Assembly (NCBI GenBank): GCA_012523035.1 | Contig: JAAYJH010000060.1 | Location: 1-32,772 of the forward strand | DNA: 32,772 bases | Source of the DNA: Fibrobacter sp. | Lineage (GTDB): Bacteria; Fibrobacterota; Fibrobacteria; Fibrobacterales; Fibrobacteraceae | Direction: 5' to 3' | Shown: positions 1-28,385 of the stretch, piece after piece | Layout: the number at the start of each line of letters is the position of its first letter | Position numbering within the stretch: position 1 is the stretch's first letter | The notes under the pieces: model-generated | Seen by the model: the letters and a program-made list of their open reading frames with translations, nothing else | Database searches by the model: none | What the model was told of the DNA's origin: nothing | Program-made: the position numbers and the translations under genes

Positions 1-297
1 GAGCGTGACGCGAAAATCATGCCAGAAATGCGGGGATGAGTGCTTGAAAATTGAGAGGAGCGTGATGCGAAAATCATGCCAGAAATGCGGGGATGCGTGC
101 TTGAAAATTGAGAAGTTAGAAGTGGTTAGTGTTAGAGATGTTATGCAAATTCAGAGGGAGACGGTGCGAAAAGTGCTACATTGAACCTGTCGAAATGTGC
201 TACACTGAGCCTGTCGAAGTGCGTGCCAGAATTTGGTGTTTATCTCTAAACACTAAGAAGTTCCCATTGAAAAACAGCCAGGCGTGTGTGAGACTTC
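1..297 (-). repeat. Intergenic repeat array, reverse orientation, cut by window edge
   Basis: No gene is seen here. Positions 1-57 and 58-114 are a tandem 57-bp duplication containing GCGAAAATCATGCCAG, the reverse complement of the CTGGCAC-ATTTTCGCA unit found in the other arrays of this window. Positions 180-223 hold two copies of a GACAGGCTCAGTGTAGCA-like element in reverse. The conserved end sequence (core TCTCACACACGCCTGGCT on the minus strand) closes the array at 276-297. Bases 223-297 match 27707-27781 on the opposite strand with two differences by eye. The array lies 87 bp beyond the stop codon of the minus-strand gene at 384. Confidence 0.85.
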
Positions 298-8469: not shown

Positions 8470-8858
8470 ACAGATGTAAAACTACAAAACTTTTTGAAAT
8501 GCAGTCCAAAAAAGGAATTTCTTATAGAAAAAAATCAAAATTAAGCTTCTAAACGCTTCTTTTGGCTAGGCGCTTCTGGAACTTCATACAAAACCAGTGG
8601 AAACTTTGAAACAGCGAAGGCTTTTTTTTTAGAAGGATTTTAAGAATATGAATTTTCAAAAAGCAGAGTTTTTCCGATGGAAACAGGTTTAAAAAAGATG
8701 ATTTTTTCGATGGAAATTCGTTCTAAAAACAGAACTTTTATTTTTTAATGCTTCATAAATGTGTTTTTCAATGATGTGCTGGTTTTCAGTTTTGAATTTG
8801 TTTTGATGAAGGTTTCGATAGATTTTTTTGTTTTTGAAGTCTCACACACGCCTGGCTA
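8470..8858. other. Intergenic gap with 34-bp tandem repeat and an isolated repeat end
   Basis: 389 bp without a gene between rimI and tsaB, both on the minus strand. Positions 8657-8724 hold two imperfect 34-bp units (each with TTTTTCCGATGGAAA or TTTTTTCGATGGAAA) plus a partial third to 8739. At 8836-8857 is one copy of the conserved repeat end (core TCTCACACACGCCTGGCT), one base from the tsaB stop codon, with no array beside it. Confidence 0.6.
8836..8857 (+). repeat. Conserved repeat-end element, solitary copy
   Basis: A 22-bp match to the end element seen at 276-297, 16831-16852, 17549-17569, 25787-25808 and 27707-27728. Its CCTGGCT side, which elsewhere faces the array, here abuts the tsaB stop codon. 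This suggests either loss of the array or an independent insertion. Confidence 0.85.
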
Positions 8859-9485
8859 TTAAATTTGGGCATAAGAAGCTTGTATGTAGTTGGCTTCTTG
8901 CACCAATGAAGGGACTAAAGTGTCAAAAAAGACTCTGAATTTGGAGATGTTTTTGTCTTCGATGAGTTCAAAATGCTGTTGCTGTTGTGATATTTTGTTT
9001 TGGATTTCTGTTTGTGTTTGAGCGTGAAGGTCTCCCAAAATAGTCGTGCTTTGTGGGGCTTCGCTAAGTTTTTTTAAAAGTTCTGTGGTGGATAAAAAAG
9101 ATTCTTCGCCCTGCTTTCGTAGGTACCAATGCTCTGGTCTGGCTTTGATTATCACAAGGCTTTCTGCTGGATTTTTTGCTTGAGCCGAGAGGGCCTGGAG
9201 TGTGGAGACTCCATATAGTTCGCGTTTTCCAGAGAAGCACAAGCCCTGGGCATAGGCGATGCCATTCCTTAGTCCCGTAAATGAACCTGGCCCCAGAGTG
9301 ACCATGACCCTATGGATGTTTTCTAAGGAGGTGCTGGCTTGCAAAAGGAGCGTATCTAGTAGGCGATTCACAGACTCTCCCCGTGCTTCGTGGTCATAGA
9401 TTTCGTAGTTTTCTGCGTTTGAATATAGTCCCATTGCTATTCCAAGCCGAGAAGAATCTAAAATTAAATCGTATGTTTCGGCCAT
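8859..9485 (-). CDS. tsaB: tRNA threonylcarbamoyladenosine biosynthesis protein TsaB
   Basis: 208 residues. An ASKHA-fold protein that pairs with TsaD in the complex making t6A37 in ANN-decoding tRNAs. The N-terminal LDSSRLGIAMGLY strand and the hallmark VTLGPGSFTGLRNGIAYAQGL (residues 62-82) are clear. The C-terminal half is divergent, as is usual for TsaB. Its ATG overlaps the ddl stop codon by one base (TGATG), which indicates translational coupling. The conserved repeat-end element starts directly after its stop codon. Confidence 0.93.
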   Translation of the reverse strand: MAETYDLILDSSRLGIAMGLYSNAENYEIYDHEARGESVNRLLDTLLLQASTSLENIHRVMVTLGPGSFTGLRNGIAYAQGLCFSGKRELYGVSTLQALSAQAKNPAESLVIIKARPEHWYLRKQGEESFLSTTELLKKLSEAPQSTTILGDLHAQTQTEIQNKISQQQQHFELIEDKNISKFRVFFDTLVPSLVQEANYIQASYAQI

Positions 9486-13245: not shown

Positions 13246-14673
13246 ATGAACCGTTTATTATTCATTTTACTTTTGACTGCTAGTTTTATTTTTGCAGCCG
13301 AAACAGTAAAAACAACAGACGCTTCTGCTCAAAAAAACACCGAATCTAAAACAGAGGTAAAAGTAGAGGCAAAAGAAGCCAAAGCCGAAGCCCCTAAAAC
13401 AGAGGTGAAAGCAGAAGCAAAAGAAGCCAAAGCCGAAGCCCCTAAAACTGAGGTGAAAGCAGAAGCAAAAGAAGCCAAAGCCGAAGCCCCTAAAAAAGAG
13501 GTGAAAGCAGAAGCAAAAGAAGCCAAAGCCGATGCCCCTAAAAAAGAGGTGAAAGCAGAAGCAAAAGAAACCAAAGCCGAAGCAGAGCTAGAAGACACTC
13601 AAGATGTTCTCGATAGCGAGCTAGCAAGCTCTGAAGCTAGTGCTTCTACTACAAAAGAAAAAAAAGAAAAAATCCAAGTTAAATTTGGTTCTAATTTTGA
13701 AATCCAAGCTGGTAAAGTTTTTTGGTCTTCCGAAGACGATTTAAATGGTCATAACTTGGAAGAGTGGTTTGGACGCGCCAACTTGTCTTTATTGACTAAA
13801 ACAGATCGTTTTATTGGTAAATTATTTTTCTCTGTTTACCCAGGTGATTTGGTAGTGAACCCTACTTATGTTTACACAGAAGATAAAAACACCGAATTAG
13901 AGTACCGAGATATTTTAGAACTAAGAGAAGCTTCTGCTTTACAACGCACCAAATACTTTAACTTTAAATTGGGTCGTTGGGAAAACACCGACAAACACGG
14001 AGACTATTTTGGTGGCTACATAGACGGGTATAAGATTGGTTTCAAGTCCACTCAAAAAGCCGAAAACATGATGCAATTTGGATTCACTCCAAGCGAAAAT
14101 CTAGCCCTTGAGTTTGCTTTCATTAGCACAGGTCCATACTTAAATACCGGTGACTTCCGTGGTTTGGCTCAATTTAGAGACCTTCCTTCTTTAGAAGCGA
14201 TAGAGGTTGATTTGGCTTTTAGAACCAATATTTTTGACAAAGTCTATTCCAGTAAATCCGATGTAAAAACAAATGTTTCTTTAAAGGCAAAACTCAATTT
14301 AATCGATGATAAACTTGCTCTTTTTGGAGAAGTAGCCATGTTAGACTTAGGCTCTGATTCTACAGAGACATATATCGATGAAAAAGGTTACAAACATTCA
14401 AGGACTGTGGTTGTAGATTGGAAAATGCCTTTGACCGGCGGGATCCTTTTCACTCCTGGTGTCATTGACAAAATCGTACTTGAAGCAGAATACCTTGCCG
14501 ACAGACACGAGACTGTGTATAAAACCAATAGTAAAAAGATCAAAGATGTCTTAGGTGCATTCTATATTGAAAAATCTTTAACCGATCGTTTCACTTTGTC
14601 TGCTGGTTTCCATAGTTATGGCAGTTCCAGAGACTTTGTATTGAACGGCAACCTCATTGGTCGAATTTACTAA
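13246..14673 (+). CDS. Outer-membrane beta-barrel (porin-like) protein with Lys/Glu/Ala repeat segment
   Basis: 475 residues. Signal peptide NRLLFILLLTASFIFA, cleaved before AETV. Residues 35-113 are five near-identical 16-residue repeats (KTEVKAEAKEAKAEAP), highly charged and probably extended or helical, spanning periplasm or peptidoglycan. From about residue 145 the sequence alternates polar and aromatic residues typical of an outer-membrane barrel (FGSNFEIQAGKVFWSSEDD, LGRWENTDKHGDYFGGYIDG, LIGRIY), and it ends close to an aromatic residue (Y), as barrels usually do. Charged repeat plus barrel recalls OmpA-like proteins turned around, but I see no OmpA peptidoglycan-binding domain. AGGAGA lies before the ATG, and a strong terminator follows. 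Pore specificity is unknown. Confidence 0.75.
   Translation: MNRLLFILLLTASFIFAAETVKTTDASAQKNTESKTEVKVEAKEAKAEAPKTEVKAEAKEAKAEAPKTEVKAEAKEAKAEAPKKEVKAEAKEAKADAPKKEVKAEAKETKAEAELEDTQDVLDSELASSEASASTTKEKKEKIQVKFGSNFEIQAGKVFWSSEDDLNGHNLEEWFGRANLSLLTKTDRFIGKLFFSVYPGDLVVNPTYVYTEDKNTELEYRDILELREASALQRTKYFNFKLGRWENTDKHGDYFGGYIDGYKIGFKSTQKAENMMQFGFTPSENLALEFAFISTGPYLNTGDFRGLAQFRDLPSLEAIEVDLAFRTNIFDKVYSSKSDVKTNVSLKAKLNLIDDKLALFGEVAMLDLGSDSTETYIDEKGYKHSRTVVVDWKMPLTGGILFTPGVIDKIVLEAEYLADRHETVYKTNSKKIKDVLGAFYIEKSLTDRFTLSAGFHSYGSSRDFVLNGNLIGRIY
13348..13582 (+). repeat. 48-bp in-frame tandem repeat, five copies
   Basis: Units begin at 13348, 13396, 13444, 13492 and 13540, the last being partial. Each encodes the 16-residue K(T/K)EVKAEAKEAKAEAP block of the barrel protein. 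The middle copies are almost identical at DNA level, so copy number could vary between strains. The open antisense frame over it is a by-product of the repeat. Confidence 0.93.
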
Positions 14674-14758: not shown

Positions 14759-16801
14759 ATGAAAAACTTTTATATCACAACTCCCATTTACTATGTGAAC
14801 GACGCTCCTCATATTGGTCACGCTTATACCACTGTACTTGCCGACATCCTCACTCGATACCACCAACTTTTTGGATACGAAAGCTTTTTTTTAACAGGCA
14901 CCGACGAACACGGGCAAAAAGTCCAACAAGCGGCACAAAAACGAGGCGTTGATCCTCAAGCACATGTGGACGAGTACAATTTACATTTTAAAGAACTCTG
15001 GAATAAAATGGATATCCAATACGACCATTTTATACGCACCACGGATAGTGATCATAAAAAATTCGTTTCGGATTCTCTTCAAAAGCTTTGGGACAAGGGT
15101 GAAATTTATGCCAAAGAATACGAAGGCTGGTACTCTGTTGGCGAAGAACGATTTTTTGCAGAAGAAGAACTGGTGGATCAAAAAGACCCAATTGGGAATC
15201 GCCCTGTAGAGTGGATCAAAGAAAAAAACTACTTCTTTAAAATGGGAAAATACCAAGAAAAACTCATCCAGTATATCGAAGAAAATCCAAATTGGATCCT
15301 CCCAGATTTTAGAAAAAACGAAGTCTTGGGCTTTTTAAAACAAGAACTCACCGATTTATGCATCAGCAGACCCAAATCTCGATTAAGCTGGGGAATTCCC
15401 CTCCCTTTTGACACTGACTATGTGACCTATGTGTGGTTTGACGCCCTTATCAATTATGTGAGTGCGGTACAAAACAAAAACTTCAAAAACGGTGCTCCCC
15501 TTTGGCCAGCCTCGTACCATTTGATTGGAAAAGATATTTTAACTACACATGCTATTTATTGGCCCACTATGCTCATGGCTTTAGAGATTCCACTCCCCAC
15601 TCATATTTTAGCCCATGGATGGTGGCTTATCGATGGAAGCAAAATGAGCAAATCTAGCGGCACTGGAGTCAACCCCATTGACTATATGGATCAATACGGA
15701 GTGGATAGCTTTCGATACTTTTTAGCCCGAGAAATGGTGGTCGGTTTAGACAGCACCTTCAGTGACGACGCTTTCAAAAGACGCATCAACAGTGATTTAG
15801 CCAATGATTTAGGCAACCTTGCCAACAGAGTTTATAAATTAGTCGAGACACACTTTAATGGTGTATTGCCTGCTGCCACCCAAATAGATTCAGAAGCCCA
15901 AAAACTCATCGAATATTCTAAAGAATTGAAAAAGAAAGTTTATACAAACATAGAACAAGTGAAACTTTCTACACTCATAGAAGACATTATGAGTTTAGTA
16001 CGCATGGTCAATCGTTATTTAGAAATTAAAGCCCCATGGAAACTAGCCAAAGACACCAATCTACGCGAAGAACTGGGCACAGTACTTTTTATTTCGGCCG
16101 AAGCCCTTCGAATATCTCTTTGCTTTTTATCTCCAATTATCCCTAGTAAAGCTCAAGAAGCACTGCATATGCTTGGGAGCAAACTAGAATCTTTAGATGA
16201 TTTAAACTGGGGAAAACTAAAAGGTGGAGAAGTTTTTGGAAAAGCGTCTGTATTGTTTCCAAGAATAGAAATCACAAACACCTCAAAAACCCAAAACAGT
16301 ACACAAAAACCCCTCTTCGCCAAAGATGTTGCAGCGGCACTAGACCTTAGAGTAGCCAAAATATTGAGCGTCACCAACCACCCCAACGCAGACTCACTAT
16401 ATGTACTAAACATAGATGCTGGCGAAGCAGAGCCTCGAATCGTATGTTCGGGCATCAAATCCAGTTACAGCCCTCAAGAACTCGAAGGCCGTCTTGTCTT
16501 ACTATTTGCAAACCTCAAAGCCGCCCCCTTACGCGGTGTCATGAGCTCGGGCATGATTTTAGCAGGCGAAACAGAAAACAAAAAAACTTCTTTAGTCAGC
16601 GTACCCCCTGAATCTAAAATCGGAGAACGGGCATTCTTTCAAAACATAGAAGCATCAGAAAATCGAGAGCTCAAAATCAAAGATTTTCAAAAAATCCAAC
16701 TAGAAGTTCAAAACAAAAGCATCTTTTACCTTGATAACCGATTAGAAATCAACCAAAAACCCCTCACTTGCGAAGCCCCCGACGGATCCACCATCCATTA
16801 A
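14759..16801 (+). CDS. metG: Methionyl-tRNA synthetase with C-terminal tRNA-binding domain
   Basis: 680 residues. It charges initiator and elongator tRNA-Met. The class I signature is visible: TTPIYYVNDAPHIGHAYTT (HIGH near residue 20) and KMSKSSG (near residue 298). The connective peptide reads EGWYSVGEERFFAEEEL where zinc-binding MetRS has cysteines, so this is the zinc-free form. Residues 520-630 are an EMAP-II/Trbp111-like OB domain (DLRVAKILSVTNHPNADSLY) that aids dimerisation and tRNA binding. A further 50-residue tail (after about 630) follows it and is not a family feature I recognise. The Shine-Dalgarno sequence is weak. The gene is flanked by a terminator upstream and the bounded repeat block downstream. 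Confidence 0.96.
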   Translation: MKNFYITTPIYYVNDAPHIGHAYTTVLADILTRYHQLFGYESFFLTGTDEHGQKVQQAAQKRGVDPQAHVDEYNLHFKELWNKMDIQYDHFIRTTDSDHKKFVSDSLQKLWDKGEIYAKEYEGWYSVGEERFFAEEELVDQKDPIGNRPVEWIKEKNYFFKMGKYQEKLIQYIEENPNWILPDFRKNEVLGFLKQELTDLCISRPKSRLSWGIPLPFDTDYVTYVWFDALINYVSAVQNKNFKNGAPLWPASYHLIGKDILTTHAIYWPTMLMALEIPLPTHILAHGWWLIDGSKMSKSSGTGVNPIDYMDQYGVDSFRYFLAREMVVGLDSTFSDDAFKRRINSDLANDLGNLANRVYKLVETHFNGVLPAATQIDSEAQKLIEYSKELKKKVYTNIEQVKLSTLIEDIMSLVRMVNRYLEIKAPWKLAKDTNLREELGTVLFISAEALRISLCFLSPIIPSKAQEALHMLGSKLESLDDLNWGKLKGGEVFGKASVLFPRIEITNTSKTQNSTQKPLFAKDVAAALDLRVAKILSVTNHPNADSLYVLNIDAGEAEPRIVCSGIKSSYSPQELEGRLVLLFANLKAAPLRGVMSSGMILAGETENKKTSLVSVPPESKIGERAFFQNIEASENRELKIKDFQKIQLEVQNKSIFYLDNRLEINQKPLTCEAPDGSTIH

Positions 16802-16830
16802 ACAAAAAATTAAATCACTATTTATTGATG

Positions 16831-17569
16831 GAAGTTTCACACACGCCTGGCTTTTTGAAGTAGAAAGTGAGAAGTGAGAAGTATTTAAAGATTAACAGCT
16901 AATTTGGAAATTCAATTCGTTTTCTGGCACGATTTTCGCACAGTACCTCTGTCGCGCATCCCAGCATTTCTGGCATGCACTTCGACAGGCTCAGTGTAGC
17001 ACTTTTCGCAGCATATCACATCCTACTTTTCGCACCGTCCCCTCTGATTTCCGCAAAACATCTCTAACACTAACCACTAATCTGGCACAATTTTCGCAAA
17101 GCAATCACCCTTCATTTCTGGCACAATTTTCGCAGAATATCGCATCCCAATTTCCAGATACGTATCCCAGCGTTTCTGGCACGATTTTCGCACAGTACCT
17201 CTGTCACGCATCCCAGTATTTCTGGCACAATTTTCGCAGAGTATCGCATCCCAATTTCCAGACACGCATCCCAGCGTTTCTGGCACGATTTTCGCACAGT
17301 ACCTCTGTCGCGCATCCCAGCGTTTCTGGCATGCACTTCGACAGGCTCAATGTAGCACTTTTCGCAGCATATCACATCCTACTTTTCGCACCGTCCCCTC
17401 TGATTTCCGCAAAACATCTCTAACACTAACCACTAATCTGGCACAAATTTCGCAAAGCAATCACCCTTCATTTCTGGCACAATTTTCGCAGAATATCGCA
17501 TCCCAATTTCCAGACACGCATCCCAGCTTTTATGGCACGCTTTTCAGAAGCCAGGCGTGTGTGAGACTT
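16831..17569. repeat. Repeat block bounded by inverted copies of the conserved end element
   Basis: The whole gap between metG (+) and the acetylesterase (-) is a repeat block. The end element lies at 16831-16852 (one mismatch) and inverted at 17549-17569. Inside the left end are AGTGAGA-type heptamers (16859-16879). The body holds eight copies of CTGGCAC(G/A)A(T/A)TTTCGCA, starting near 16924, 17082, 17118, 17176, 17222, 17280, 17438 and 17474. Positions 16919-17174 recur at 17275-17530 (offset 356) with about five differences, around a shorter 100-bp copy. No CDS is credible here, and no clear target-site duplication is seen. Confidence 0.88.
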
Positions 17570-17607
17570 TATTCTCTATCGTTAGAGTGTTAAACTGTAT
17601 TAGTTCA

Positions 17608-18834
17608 TTAAAACATTGAAATTTTATAGGCTTTTTTATCGACTTCTATAATATAATGGCCAGGTTTAGAGATTTGGATTTGATTTTGAGCTTTATTCAA
17701 TAAGCCACGAGATAACAAGTTCCCTTGGAGGTCAAAAAGCTTGTAGCTGTGGTGGAGATTGTTTTCAATCCATATGGAGCGGCCCACAATATGCATTTGT
17801 AGTTGATTTATTTGGAGTGGAGATAGTGCACCTTTTTTCTGAAAAGAAAGTGAGGAGTCATCTAAAGGGATTTGACTGGAAGACGACCAATTGTTGCCCC
17901 AAGGGTTTTGACTCGAAGATGACCAATTGTTGCCCCAAGGATTTTGACTCGATGAAGAAGAATTGCCCCATGGATTCTGACTGGAAGAGGAAAATACAGA
18001 ACTAGAAGAGGGTGTTTCAGCGGAGCTAATGGGTCTTAGTTTTAAATAAGCTTCTGCATAGCGTTTCCCCATCTCTCGGTAAGAGGGTGTGTCAAAATGA
18101 TATTGATCCTTCATCCCTGTTAAACCGTTGGCAGAAACTACGGCCGAATTTGGAATTTTACTTGGAATTTGTGCGATCACATTGTTATGGAGTTTGCAAC
18201 ATCCATTGTAAGGCAATTCTCCTGCTAAAAAAGGCACATCTTCGTTTAGATTCAAATCATTTTTTAAGTCCGAAACTATTTTTGACACTCGAGTGACCCA
18301 TGTATTGCTTCCATTGTCAGATTCTCCTTGATGCAACAATATGCCTTGGAGTTTTCCTTTTTTTAGTGCATTTTGTAAGCGTTCTAAAACCCATGGGTAT
18401 AAATTTCGGCTAGGATAATTGCCCACCGCCGATGGAGGGTTGTATTGAAATGACTGCATGTTGTAATAAGAACCTTTTACAAATATATCGATGCTTGCAC
18501 CAGCTATGGCCACAGGCACAAGAGCAATGGTGTCTTTGTAGCCTTTTTCAATGAGAGTTTTTGCAAACCAATCACCTGGACCCACACCTTCGTTACAGTC
18601 ATGAAGAGGTGGAACCGCTGTGTACCACTGCCCATCTTTTCTATTTAAGTTATTGCAATCCCTAAAAGCCATCACCTTCACTTGTTCGTTCGAAGCACGA
18701 TCTTCGCTTTGGATAGAGCCTTGTCCAGACATATTGGATTGTCCAATGAGCAAAAACACACTCCAATCTGCAAAGCTTAAAGAAGAGAAAAAGATGAGAA
18801 ATAAGCAAATACGCTTTAAATTGCCGCTATTCAT
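17608..18834 (-). CDS. Secreted SGNH/SASA-family acetylesterase (CE6-like) with Ser-rich repeat linker
   Basis: 408 residues. Signal peptide to about Ala22, then the SASA/CE6-type block LLIGQSNMSG with nucleophile Ser33, HQGESD near residue 170, and DQYHFDTPSYREMG near 245 carrying the Asp/His pair. CE6 enzymes remove acetyl groups from xylan. After the domain (about 265) comes a linker of 12-13 residue repeats (SSSSQNPWGNNW), typical of Fibrobacter enzymes. The last 75 residues (YKLFDLQGNLLSRG...GHYIIEVDKKAYKISMF) resemble type IX secretion-type C-terminal sorting domains. A good AAAGGAG lies 5 bases before the ATG. No operon partner is coupled. Acetylxylan as the substrate is inferred. Confidence 0.82.
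   Translation of the reverse strand: MNSGNLKRICLFLIFFSSLSFADWSVFLLIGQSNMSGQGSIQSEDRASNEQVKVMAFRDCNNLNRKDGQWYTAVPPLHDCNEGVGPGDWFAKTLIEKGYKDTIALVPVAIAGASIDIFVKGSYYNMQSFQYNPPSAVGNYPSRNLYPWVLERLQNALKKGKLQGILLHQGESDNGSNTWVTRVSKIVSDLKNDLNLNEDVPFLAGELPYNGCCKLHNNVIAQIPSKIPNSAVVSANGLTGMKDQYHFDTPSYREMGKRYAEAYLKLRPISSAETPSSSSVFSSSSQNPWGNSSSSSQNPWGNNWSSSSQNPWGNNWSSSSQIPLDDSSLSFQKKGALSPLQINQLQMHIVGRSIWIENNLHHSYKLFDLQGNLLSRGLLNKAQNQIQISKPGHYIIEVDKKAYKISMF
17859..17998 (-). repeat. In-frame 36-39 bp repeats encoding the Ser-rich linker
   Basis: Three clear and one degenerate copy of a unit encoding SSSSQNPWGNNW-like peptide. Such linkers separate catalytic and sorting modules in fibrobacterial secreted enzymes. 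Confidence 0.8.
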
Positions 18835-25786: not shown

Positions 25787-26060
25787 GAAGTCTCACACAC
25801 GCCTGGCTTTTAAAGTAGGAAGTTGGAAGTGGGAAGTGGGAAGTATTTAAAGATTCAGAGCTAATTTGGAGATGAACAGCGTTTTCTGGCACACATTTCG
25901 CATGGATAACCGCATAATGAAGACTTGGGCGGTTCGTGGTTAGTACTTAAAGATAAACTGCGTTTTCTGGCACAAATTTCGCATAAACTCCGTGACACCC
26001 TGCATCTTTGGCACAATTTTCGCAGGGATTCCCTCGCAATGACGGTACATTCTTGGAATG
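25787..26060 (+). repeat. Intergenic repeat array with conserved end element and heptamers
   Basis: The end element at 25787-25808 is followed by four 7-bp units AGT(A/T/G)GGA (25814-25841). Three CTGGCAC-type units lie near 25886, 25966 and 26009, then a CGCAGGGATTCCCTCGCAAT element at 26021-26044 that recurs at 27909-27932. No inverted second end is visible. The array lies upstream of glyS (-) and beyond the 3' end of the recombinase gene (-). Confidence 0.82.
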
Positions 26061-27706: not shown

Positions 27707-28385
27707 GAAGTCTCACACACGCCTGGCTGTTTTTCAATAGGAACTTCTTAGTGTTTAGAGATAAACACCAAATTCTAGCACAAATTTCGCATAAACTCCG
27801 TGATTCCCTACATCTTTGGCACGATTTTCGCAGCACAGTCCAGTCAAAGTGATTCGCACAGTTTCACCCACATTTCAAGCACGCATCCCTGTTTTCTGGC
27901 ACGATTTTCGCAGGGATTCCCTCGCAATGACGATAAAGACTTAGCATTCCTAAAAAAAAAGAAGTTTTCACCTCATCTTTGGCACGATTTTCGCAGCACA
28001 GTCCAGTCAAAGTGATTCGCACAGCCTCATCCCACTTTTATAGCACAAATTTCGCATAAACTCCGTGATTCCATACATCTTTGACACGCACTTTGACTGG
28101 CTCAGTGTAGCAATTTTCGCACAGTATCTTTGTCGCCATCCCGAAATTGCATAAAATCTCTAACACTAACCACTTCCCACTAATCTGGCACGATTTTCGC
28201 ACAATATTCTCTCATATTAAAAAAAAACCGCGTTTTGCACAGCTTCACCCACATTTCAAACTCGCATCCCTGTTTTCTGGCTCAATTTTCGCAGGGATTC
28301 CCTCGAAATGGCGAGGAGGAGACTATTTAGAGATGAACGGCTGCTTTTTTGGGGGGGATTCGGGTTAAGGAAGCTGTGCGAAATG
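27707..28385 (+). repeat. Long intergenic repeat array with conserved end element
   Basis: The end element is at 27707-27728; the 75 bases to 27781 match the reverse complement of 223-297 with two differences. The array then holds seven CTGGCAC(G/A)-TTTCGCA units (near 27777, 27816, 27896, 27980, 28039, 28183 and 28277), GCATAAACTCCGTGA twice, a CGCAGGGATTCCCTCGCAAT element (27909-27932, with a decayed copy near 28290), and a GGCTCAGTGTAGCA element near 28093. A reversed unit appears near 28376. No gene is credible here. It fills the space between the tRNA-Lys terminator and tgt. Confidence 0.85.

Follow-up and report, generated by a model that had tools for sequence, protein, structure and literature searches.

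A two-ended modular repeat block of Fibrobacter sp. and a one-sided composition ramp outside its end signal

Several kinds of short dispersed repeats are known from bacterial genomes. REP and REPIN sequences are short, high-copy, extragenic elements that occur singly or as inverted pairs and fall into several subfamilies. The DNA uptake sequences of the Neisseriaceae are found in many copies on both strands, are common inside genes, and go together with a strand preference in uptake. They have been described as forming dialects within the family, according to the available part of PMC12061091. A more complex organisation is that of the BrickBuilt MITE of Porphyromonas gingivalis, which is present in 19 copies in ATCC 33277 and for which the available part of the description gives no end-bearing leader or tail without repeats (PMC4596501). 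In the same part of that paper, the ends are likened to the terminal repeats of the IS5 family, and a target duplication is given for three of the four two-ended copies (PMC4596501).

Here we describe a repeat block found in a 32,772-nt stretch of DNA from Fibrobacter sp. (contig JAAYJH010000060.1 of assembly GCA_012523035.1; below, the window), which is contig 16 of a 2.2-Mb genome in 125 contigs, together with the genome-wide family of end signals to which its ends belong.

The block between metG and an esterase-like gene

The block lies between the forward-strand metG, which ends at 16801, and a reverse-strand esterase-like ORF, which ends at 17608, and thus leaves only 29 and 38 nt of the gap on its two sides. 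An earlier sequence-only reading of this DNA had described a repeat block with inverted ends, filling a convergent gap and carrying a duplication offset by 356 bp, and the analysis bears out each of these points. The inverted arms (16832–16853 and 17548–17569) are 22 nt long and 95% complementary, and a direct repeat of 269 nt (16921–17189 and 17277–17545) shows 97% identity at a spacing of 356.

The left end signal (16831–16853, forward strand) has its outer edge toward metG and corresponds to dialect A, defined below, with one T. It is followed by a purine-rich leader (GAAGTAGAAAGTGAGAAGTGAGAAGT...TTTAAAGATTAACAGC; 16854–16919, forward), which has 84 nt in common with the end at 25788 and is common to other copies too. 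The modular array (16920–17547, forward) is a mosaic of short modules, all in one orientation, made up of eight CTGGCACRATTTTCGCA-like units (at most two mismatches), alternating CACGCATCCCAGC-like units and two CACTTCGACAGGCTCAGTGTAGCA modules. Both copies of the 269-nt duplication are on the forward strand of this array, as is a tandem duplication of 104 nt (17114–17321) with copies at 17114–17217 and 17218–17321 that are 95% identical and a third at 17470 with 76%; the 104-nt array is also reported by TRF. The right end signal (17548–17569, reverse) is an exact dialect A with its outer edge toward the esterase-like gene. No ORF of 120 aa or more is present in the block. In the three genomes with the closest MetG (70–71% identity) a different gene follows metG, so they offer no empty-site comparison. 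Elsewhere in the window, repeats of another kind lie in frame within coding sequence, namely 48-nt Lys/Ala/Glu repeats in one ORF (13346–13583) and 36-nt repeats in a Ser-rich linker of the esterase-like ORF (17871–17988).

The sigma54 −24/−12 consensus is TGGCACG-N4-TTGCA, and the array unit CTGGCACGATTTTCGCA, of which there are eight between 16924 and 17490 and others in arrays elsewhere, matches it with one change. An RpoN family protein is encoded in the genome, and seven of its eight perfect TTGGCACGNNNNTTGCW sites lie either in the C41 array or no more than about 200 nt from a signal. The match is striking, but the next inward gene runs along the array in 16 copies and against it in 20, and a sigma54 promoter is kept here as no more than a lead.

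Five sites in the window carry this end. Besides the block in the metG gap, they are an end signal at 276–297 (reverse), whose array runs off the contig start; two at 25787–25808 and 27707–27728 (both forward), with arrays to about 26110 and about 28400, respectively, and no second end seen; and a solo end signal at 8836–8857 (forward), which has no array and adjoins the stop codon of an ORF at 8859–9485. A second end was found at the metG gap only, so that the block is indeed the sole array among these five with two visible inverted ends. The accompanying view of the ends as array ends did not foresee the copy at 8836–8857, which lacks an array. Weaker signal-like copies with three mismatches occur at window position 8564 (reverse), C14:15431 and C102:2857; two of the three end in CGCCTAGCC, possibly a third dialect or chance.

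The end signal and the dispersal of its blocks

The end signal comes in two dialects, AAGTCTCACACACGCCTGGCT and AAGTTTCAGAAGCGCCTGGCT, here called A and B. The end sequence TCTCACACACGCCTGGCT has 126 matches in the genome at up to two mismatches and its reversed pattern 0, and a degenerate pattern covering both dialects (up to three mismatches) finds 216 copies, 110 on one strand and 106 on the other, versus 4 for the reversal. Across 166 other genomes of the phylum the degenerate pattern matches 0–7 times each, the reversed control likewise 0–7 times, and dialect A at up to one mismatch is in none of them. Exact dialect A was not found in a scan of GTDB contigs, which may leave out records near the window's genome, and a degenerate scan gave at least one record elsewhere, close to the number that we estimate for chance. 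The signal was also absent from the viral contigs searched, and fragments of its letters were not found in the PMC papers searched. For the relative G003, 373 kb were inspected and no analogous dispersed signal was seen, only different arrays; these are intergenic arrays of its own (L261, L266, L268, L271 and L278), with modules TACCACAAGGGTATCACTCTCAC and AAAACCATTTCCGTCAACAA, some of them near contig ends.

We read 176 of the roughly 216 copies (up to four mismatches; roughly 40 were left out), 110 of which are nearer to dialect A and 66 nearer to B, with 126 exact matches. The conserved stretch is near-invariant and has sharp edges. Four idealised end sequences fold no better than their shuffles, giving no stable hairpin. 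A coding reading of the signal was discarded on inspection, some copies holding in-frame stops.

Most copies stand alone. Of the copies with up to two mismatches, 160 had an inner flank long enough to be classified; an array follows the end on its inner side in 52 of them, and the other 108 are solo, a solo tally that varies with the rule used (107, 108 or 114). The array unit, looked for in 105 dialect-A-like copies, reads inward in 31 and lies outside the end in 4; in 12 it has the opposite direction, several of these copies being the second ends of two-ended blocks. Pairing has a direction as well: in a list of 189 copies, all 11 pairs of neighbours separated by less than 1 kb face inward, orientations being mixed beyond 2 kb, and a recount restricted to the copies read has 14 pairs facing inward and 3 facing outward below 1.5 kb. 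Of 44 copies lying no more than 800 bp from a contig end, 39 are oriented toward that end, so the assembly tends to break inside blocks. Of 14 pairs, 7 combine the two dialects, as assigned by script, in one block. Some ends are joined on their inner side to TGCTGTATAGCTCCA, at C36:25585, C43:19153, C78:11960 and C107:18218 (up to two mismatches) and more weakly at C9:15353, and this may be a submotif of right ends.

Placement relative to genes, which were called around the signals with a simple ORF script, bears on whether the block could be a bidirectional 3'-end (terminator) element for converging genes, a reading that had been left equally open at the outset. Its position between two converging genes suits such a role. 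However, 89 solos with both neighbours called occupy tandem (41), convergent (25) and divergent (23) gaps, and the signal has no strand bias relative to gene 3' ends: the outer gene is on the same strand in 46 and on the opposite strand in 56 of 105 copies, and solos within 60 nt of a 3' end share its strand in 18 of 33 cases. Nor is there a GC-rich hairpin with a T-run at the site; one terminator-like site was counted in the region versus 0.9 expected, and none at the ends. Because the ends have neither a stable hairpin nor an orientation bias with respect to genes, we find no support for the terminator reading and regard it as exceedingly improbable.

Copies inside genes are few. Five of 114 solos (up to two mismatches) lie well inside a predicted gene, one of these being a doubtful ORF of just 68 codons. 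The in-gene or overlapping copies are L188 (C33:3875), L205 (C72:28396), L128 (C120:11468), L223 (C115:42505) and L089 (C62:11899), and their hosts are a ZnuA-type gene, a CE2-type esterase, an acyltransferase, a lipoprotein-like ORF and the end of an argH-like gene, whose last codons and stop are provided by the overlapping signal. For the CE2-type esterase, the signal falls where the best 3 of 7 PDB relatives run about six residues shorter. The ZnuA-type protein (PF01297) aligns across the signal without a gap to the best 3 of the 52 PDB relatives matched, and arrival by insertion is therefore not needed for every copy.

Inner sequence is held in common with a copy elsewhere by 85 of 173 copies. 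The listed pairs with at least 60 nt in common from near the end number 51, and in these the adjoining outer 30 nt agree at only 3–17 positions; this stop of the inner homology at the outer edge of the end, with clean junctions, argues that blocks have spread as units. The same two-ended block is present at C65 and C73, with both signals and a long tail by the right end that is 88.6% identical over 245 nt, and the outer flanks of the two differ; a third copy of the tail is in the C70 array. The tail, about 220–250 nt (C65:12170–12420, C73:1121–1364, C70:13443–13661), contains a hairpin and then a T-run, and might represent cargo in the form of a small RNA gene or a terminator. Outer sequence is common to both members in two pairs. 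The dialect-B signals at C50:30105 and C50:32796, which are separated by 2.7 kb, have 75 nt of outer flank in common (84%), probably through a local duplication, and form an exception to the dissimilarity of outer flanks. The outer flank matches some inner flank in 30 copies, and in 8 of 176 once a copy's own neighbourhood is excluded, so outer flanks are not always free of repeats.

These features decide how far the block can be called MITE-like, as it had been on account of its inverted ends. Terminal inverted repeats do surround a short non-coding segment, ends pair inward, and units have dispersed with precise ends, as in the 51 listed pairs and at C65 and C73, where one block occupies two loci. 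The absence of a recognisable target-site duplication, already remarked on for this block, proved general: a script scan of 107 solos gave nothing systematic, and inspection of 14 inward pairs gave only a 4-nt match at C53. Nor does the preponderance of solos or the mixing of dialects fit that label. No transposase was recognised by eye between four inward pairs 1–2 kb apart, which enclose ordinary genes; in all, the inward pairs of 1–5 kb that were read, at C8, C15, C26, C120, C42 (in part), C19 and C70, hold ordinary genes as judged by eye, the pairs at C7 and C120:2681 (5.4 and 5.7 kb) lying outside this reading. An autonomous transposon in the C8, C15 and C26 pairs, which have a near-equal spacing of about 1.5 kb, was considered and rejected, the genes enclosed being ordinary ones such as ispD, gapA, prmA and rplM-rpsI (named by eye from translations). 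Y1_Tnp, the sole transposase family searched genome-wide, had 0 matches at E ≤ 0.01, and 6 of 14 control genomes were positive. We do not file the block as a MITE because of the missing target-site duplication; it belongs to a dispersed, non-autonomous family of modular repeats that is BOX- or BrickBuilt-like.

Composition outside the signal and what may cause it

The flanks outside the signal have a composition of their own. Read on the signal's strand, the outer 1.4 kb has a negative GC skew in 94 of 108 solos; for array copies the count is 42 of 53. On approach to the signal the mean GC skew reaches −0.17 in solos and −0.21 in array copies, and AT skew +0.15 and +0.21; on the inner side of solos the mean skew is near zero from 200 nt inward. 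The coding strand is unbiased (51 versus 63 loci). At fourfold-degenerate sites outside the end, the shift is to A and C on the end's strand in both gene orientations: A+C falls from 0.649 (0–250 nt) to 0.491 (1.75–2 kb) in same-strand genes, with 0.46–0.52 on the inner side, and from 0.685 to 0.556 in opposite-strand genes, with 0.51–0.55 on the inner side. The ramp fades over about 1.5 kb. Copy by copy, fourfold A+C is higher outside than inside in 75 of 96 (Wilcoxon 3e-10). For total composition, outer A+C exceeds 0.5 in 142 of 162 copies and, with non-overlapping flanks, in 140 of 160, the outer value being above the inner in 107 of 131. These counts omit copies whose flanks were short and use 162 of the 168 copies with up to two mismatches, 160 with non-overlapping flanks and 96 with both sides.

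Several controls bear on the specificity of the ramp. Dialect B, whose own A+C is 10 of 21, has it too. Permuted motifs lack the outer–inner step, yet partial matches to permuted A are still above 0.5 outside in 59% of cases, and the outer–inner difference is for this reason the better measure. Weak matches (up to seven mismatches) to dialect A have part of the step (0.526 versus 0.505, n=51), those to dialect B almost none (0.506 versus 0.502, n=100). The effect is weaker in the 20-kb stretches and the window, where the outer value exceeds 0.5 in 16 of 21 A copies and 13 of 15 B copies. The peak is 25–75 nt outside the signal and the values drop across it, the adjoining 25 nt having a composition of their own; just inside solos A+C is 0.535–0.545, then goes down to about 0.5. 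Two-ended blocks without a ramp on both sides exist (C38, C70 and C53 are near 0.5), and in-gene copies have little or none. More than 2 kb outward, a small negative GC skew is left (−0.02 to −0.08) and AT skew is about zero; a tie of signal orientation to the direction of replication, on which these values bear, is conceivable but not favoured.

At the block itself, A+C on the end's strand is 0.594 in the left outer flank (15832–16826, forward) and 0.547 in the right one (17575–18569, reverse). The last 500 nt of metG have 75 fourfold sites with A26 C30 G4 T15, compared with 8–9 G in the three closest MetG genes. A gradient in AT skew that runs to the 3' end is also seen in the metG of several more distant relatives, and metG is thus an illustration and not a proof; the case for the ramp rests on many loci and the inner-side control. 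Base frequencies imply G to A and T to C changes on the signal's strand, which equal C to T and A to G on the other. Among the papers listed on strand asymmetry with interspersed repeats, REP or uptake sequences, none describes such a ramp in its title or the opening of its abstract.

A plain decayed MITE family, with relic ends and a ramp that is a by-product of where insertions survive, would be consistent with copies that are mostly intergenic and nearer to gene 3' than 5' ends, solos within 60 nt of a gene being found at 33 3' ends versus 8 5' ends. Solo ends are nearly invariant, however, and so not decayed, and the ramp lies on one side only, can be seen at fourfold sites and does not follow the orientation of genes; we hold this explanation to be very doubtful.

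The reading we favour, tentatively and at a little under an even chance, is of a modular-repeat block whose end signals start an outward process, most likely outward transcription. Two inverted copies of the polar 22-nt signal bound the leader and the minisatellite-like array, and the signal is a free-standing chromosomal site as well. Most copies, solo or in blocks, would mark the start of a chronic one-way process running outward into the flanks, which, to judge from the ramp, would leave the complementary strand single-stranded for about 1–1.5 kb. Transcription would begin at a promoter made up of the signal together with the 25 nt next to it. In the window, this would send antisense transcripts outward from both ends of the block, into the 3' parts of metG and the esterase-like gene. 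Outward transcription is preferred because it fits the direction of the ramp, its offset of about 25 nt, its length scale and the promoter activity of BrickBuilt, which in E. coli is greatest outward across the leader end, according to the available part of PMC4596501. Sigma70-like hexamer pairs between 16600 and 17800 are not above chance (2 versus 2.3 expected), and the outer gene runs outward in 56 copies versus 46, which speaks against outer genes being driven by the signal. The 22 near-invariant positions exceed what a usual promoter keeps. The outward-terminator test of the transcription model has just three informative loci.

The main rival source of the exposed strand, which accounts for the direction of the ramp just as well and is possible though on the unlikely side, is that a transposase, recombinase or other strand-specific nuclease cuts the end signals, solos included. 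From the cut, and with the same somewhat unlikely standing, a polymerase would extend the 3' end outward and displace the complementary strand, or an exonuclease would remove one strand; the signal might then be, again as a lesser possibility, an authentic terminal repeat on which an enzyme acts in trans even now to serve a mobile family. Precise-ended dispersal of blocks agrees with this, as do a signal polarity that would suit an outward-pointing 3' end, a ramp independent of gene direction, and the changes implied for one strand, C to T together with A to G, a pattern like that left by strand displacement in mitochondria. The want of a recognised transposase in the inward pairs read, of a Y1 transposase in the genome and of a target-site duplication counts against it, and skew is highest about 25 nt off the signal and not at it, although base constraint could mask this.

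The ramp could also have been written from outside the cell, if the 22-nt motif were recognised in DNA uptake and one strand entered with fixed polarity. Deaminated single-stranded donor DNA would be recombined in, spreading the motif and the ramp with it, and arrays would hitchhike by one-sided homology. Both steps we judge improbable. Two dialects in both orientations, the motif without insertion in the ZnuA-type gene and a ComEC family protein (L301) are in keeping with uptake, but ComEC is found in 10 of 14 control genomes and its presence tells little. Moreover, just five of the 114 solos are well inside genes, plus the one over the argH-like gene end; inward pairing and one-sided arrays are left unexplained; and known uptake sequences measure 10–12 nt, as given in the available part of PMC12061091.

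Returning to the outward process at the ends, its broadest form would make the 22-nt signal a new kind of DNA-processing site, at most of roughly 200 places, from which a machine repeatedly opens or replaces one strand in one direction over about 1–1.5 kb, with directional mutation of neighbouring genes and arrays spreading on the protected side. We put this forward as a conceivable but rather doubtful reading. Interspersed repeats are usually described from sequence only, and here a repeat end has a measurable directional footprint on ordinary genes of either strand. If our reading is correct, the activity of an uncharacterised element is visible from genome sequence, and repeat ends can set gene composition locally, beyond the effects of replication or of a gene's own transcription. 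Fourfold-site composition would be a direct assay for such sites in other genomes.

Comparison with known repeat systems

Like REP and REPIN sequences, the end signals are short, high-copy and extragenic, occur singly or in inverted pairs and form subfamilies. Unlike them, they have no stable palindrome, and no Y1 (RAYT) transposase was found in the genome; an identity with REP or REPIN was rejected on both counts, and the block is accordingly not filed as a REP. With the uptake sequences of the Neisseriaceae the family has in common a short polar motif with dialects, from which it differs in a longer motif, a mostly intergenic position and arrays anchored on one side (compared with the available part of PMC12061091).

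The resemblance to the pneumococcal BOX element lies in two end modules around a variable number of internal modules and in interspersed copies (PMC3049150, available part). As described there, boxA and boxC are two distinct modules, about 50 nt each, for which an RNA fold is predicted (PMC3049150), whereas here one unstructured 22-nt signal is used twice; distinct boxA and boxC modules and a folded RNA were not found.

The closest published structure, as far as the available part of its description goes, is the BrickBuilt MITE, with which the family shares a leader, a tandem minisatellite and a tail, small inverted ends, intergenic location and multiple copies (PMC4596501). A further likeness is that some BrickBuilt copies are described there as only a leader or only a tail (PMC4596501). 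The differences from BrickBuilt, measured against the same part of its description, are that here no target duplication and no matching IS were found, that there are about 216 signals, that two-thirds of the classified copies are solo, and that a strand ramp is present. It is the many near-invariant solo ends and the strand ramp that set this family apart from a MITE with a minisatellite and from BOX.
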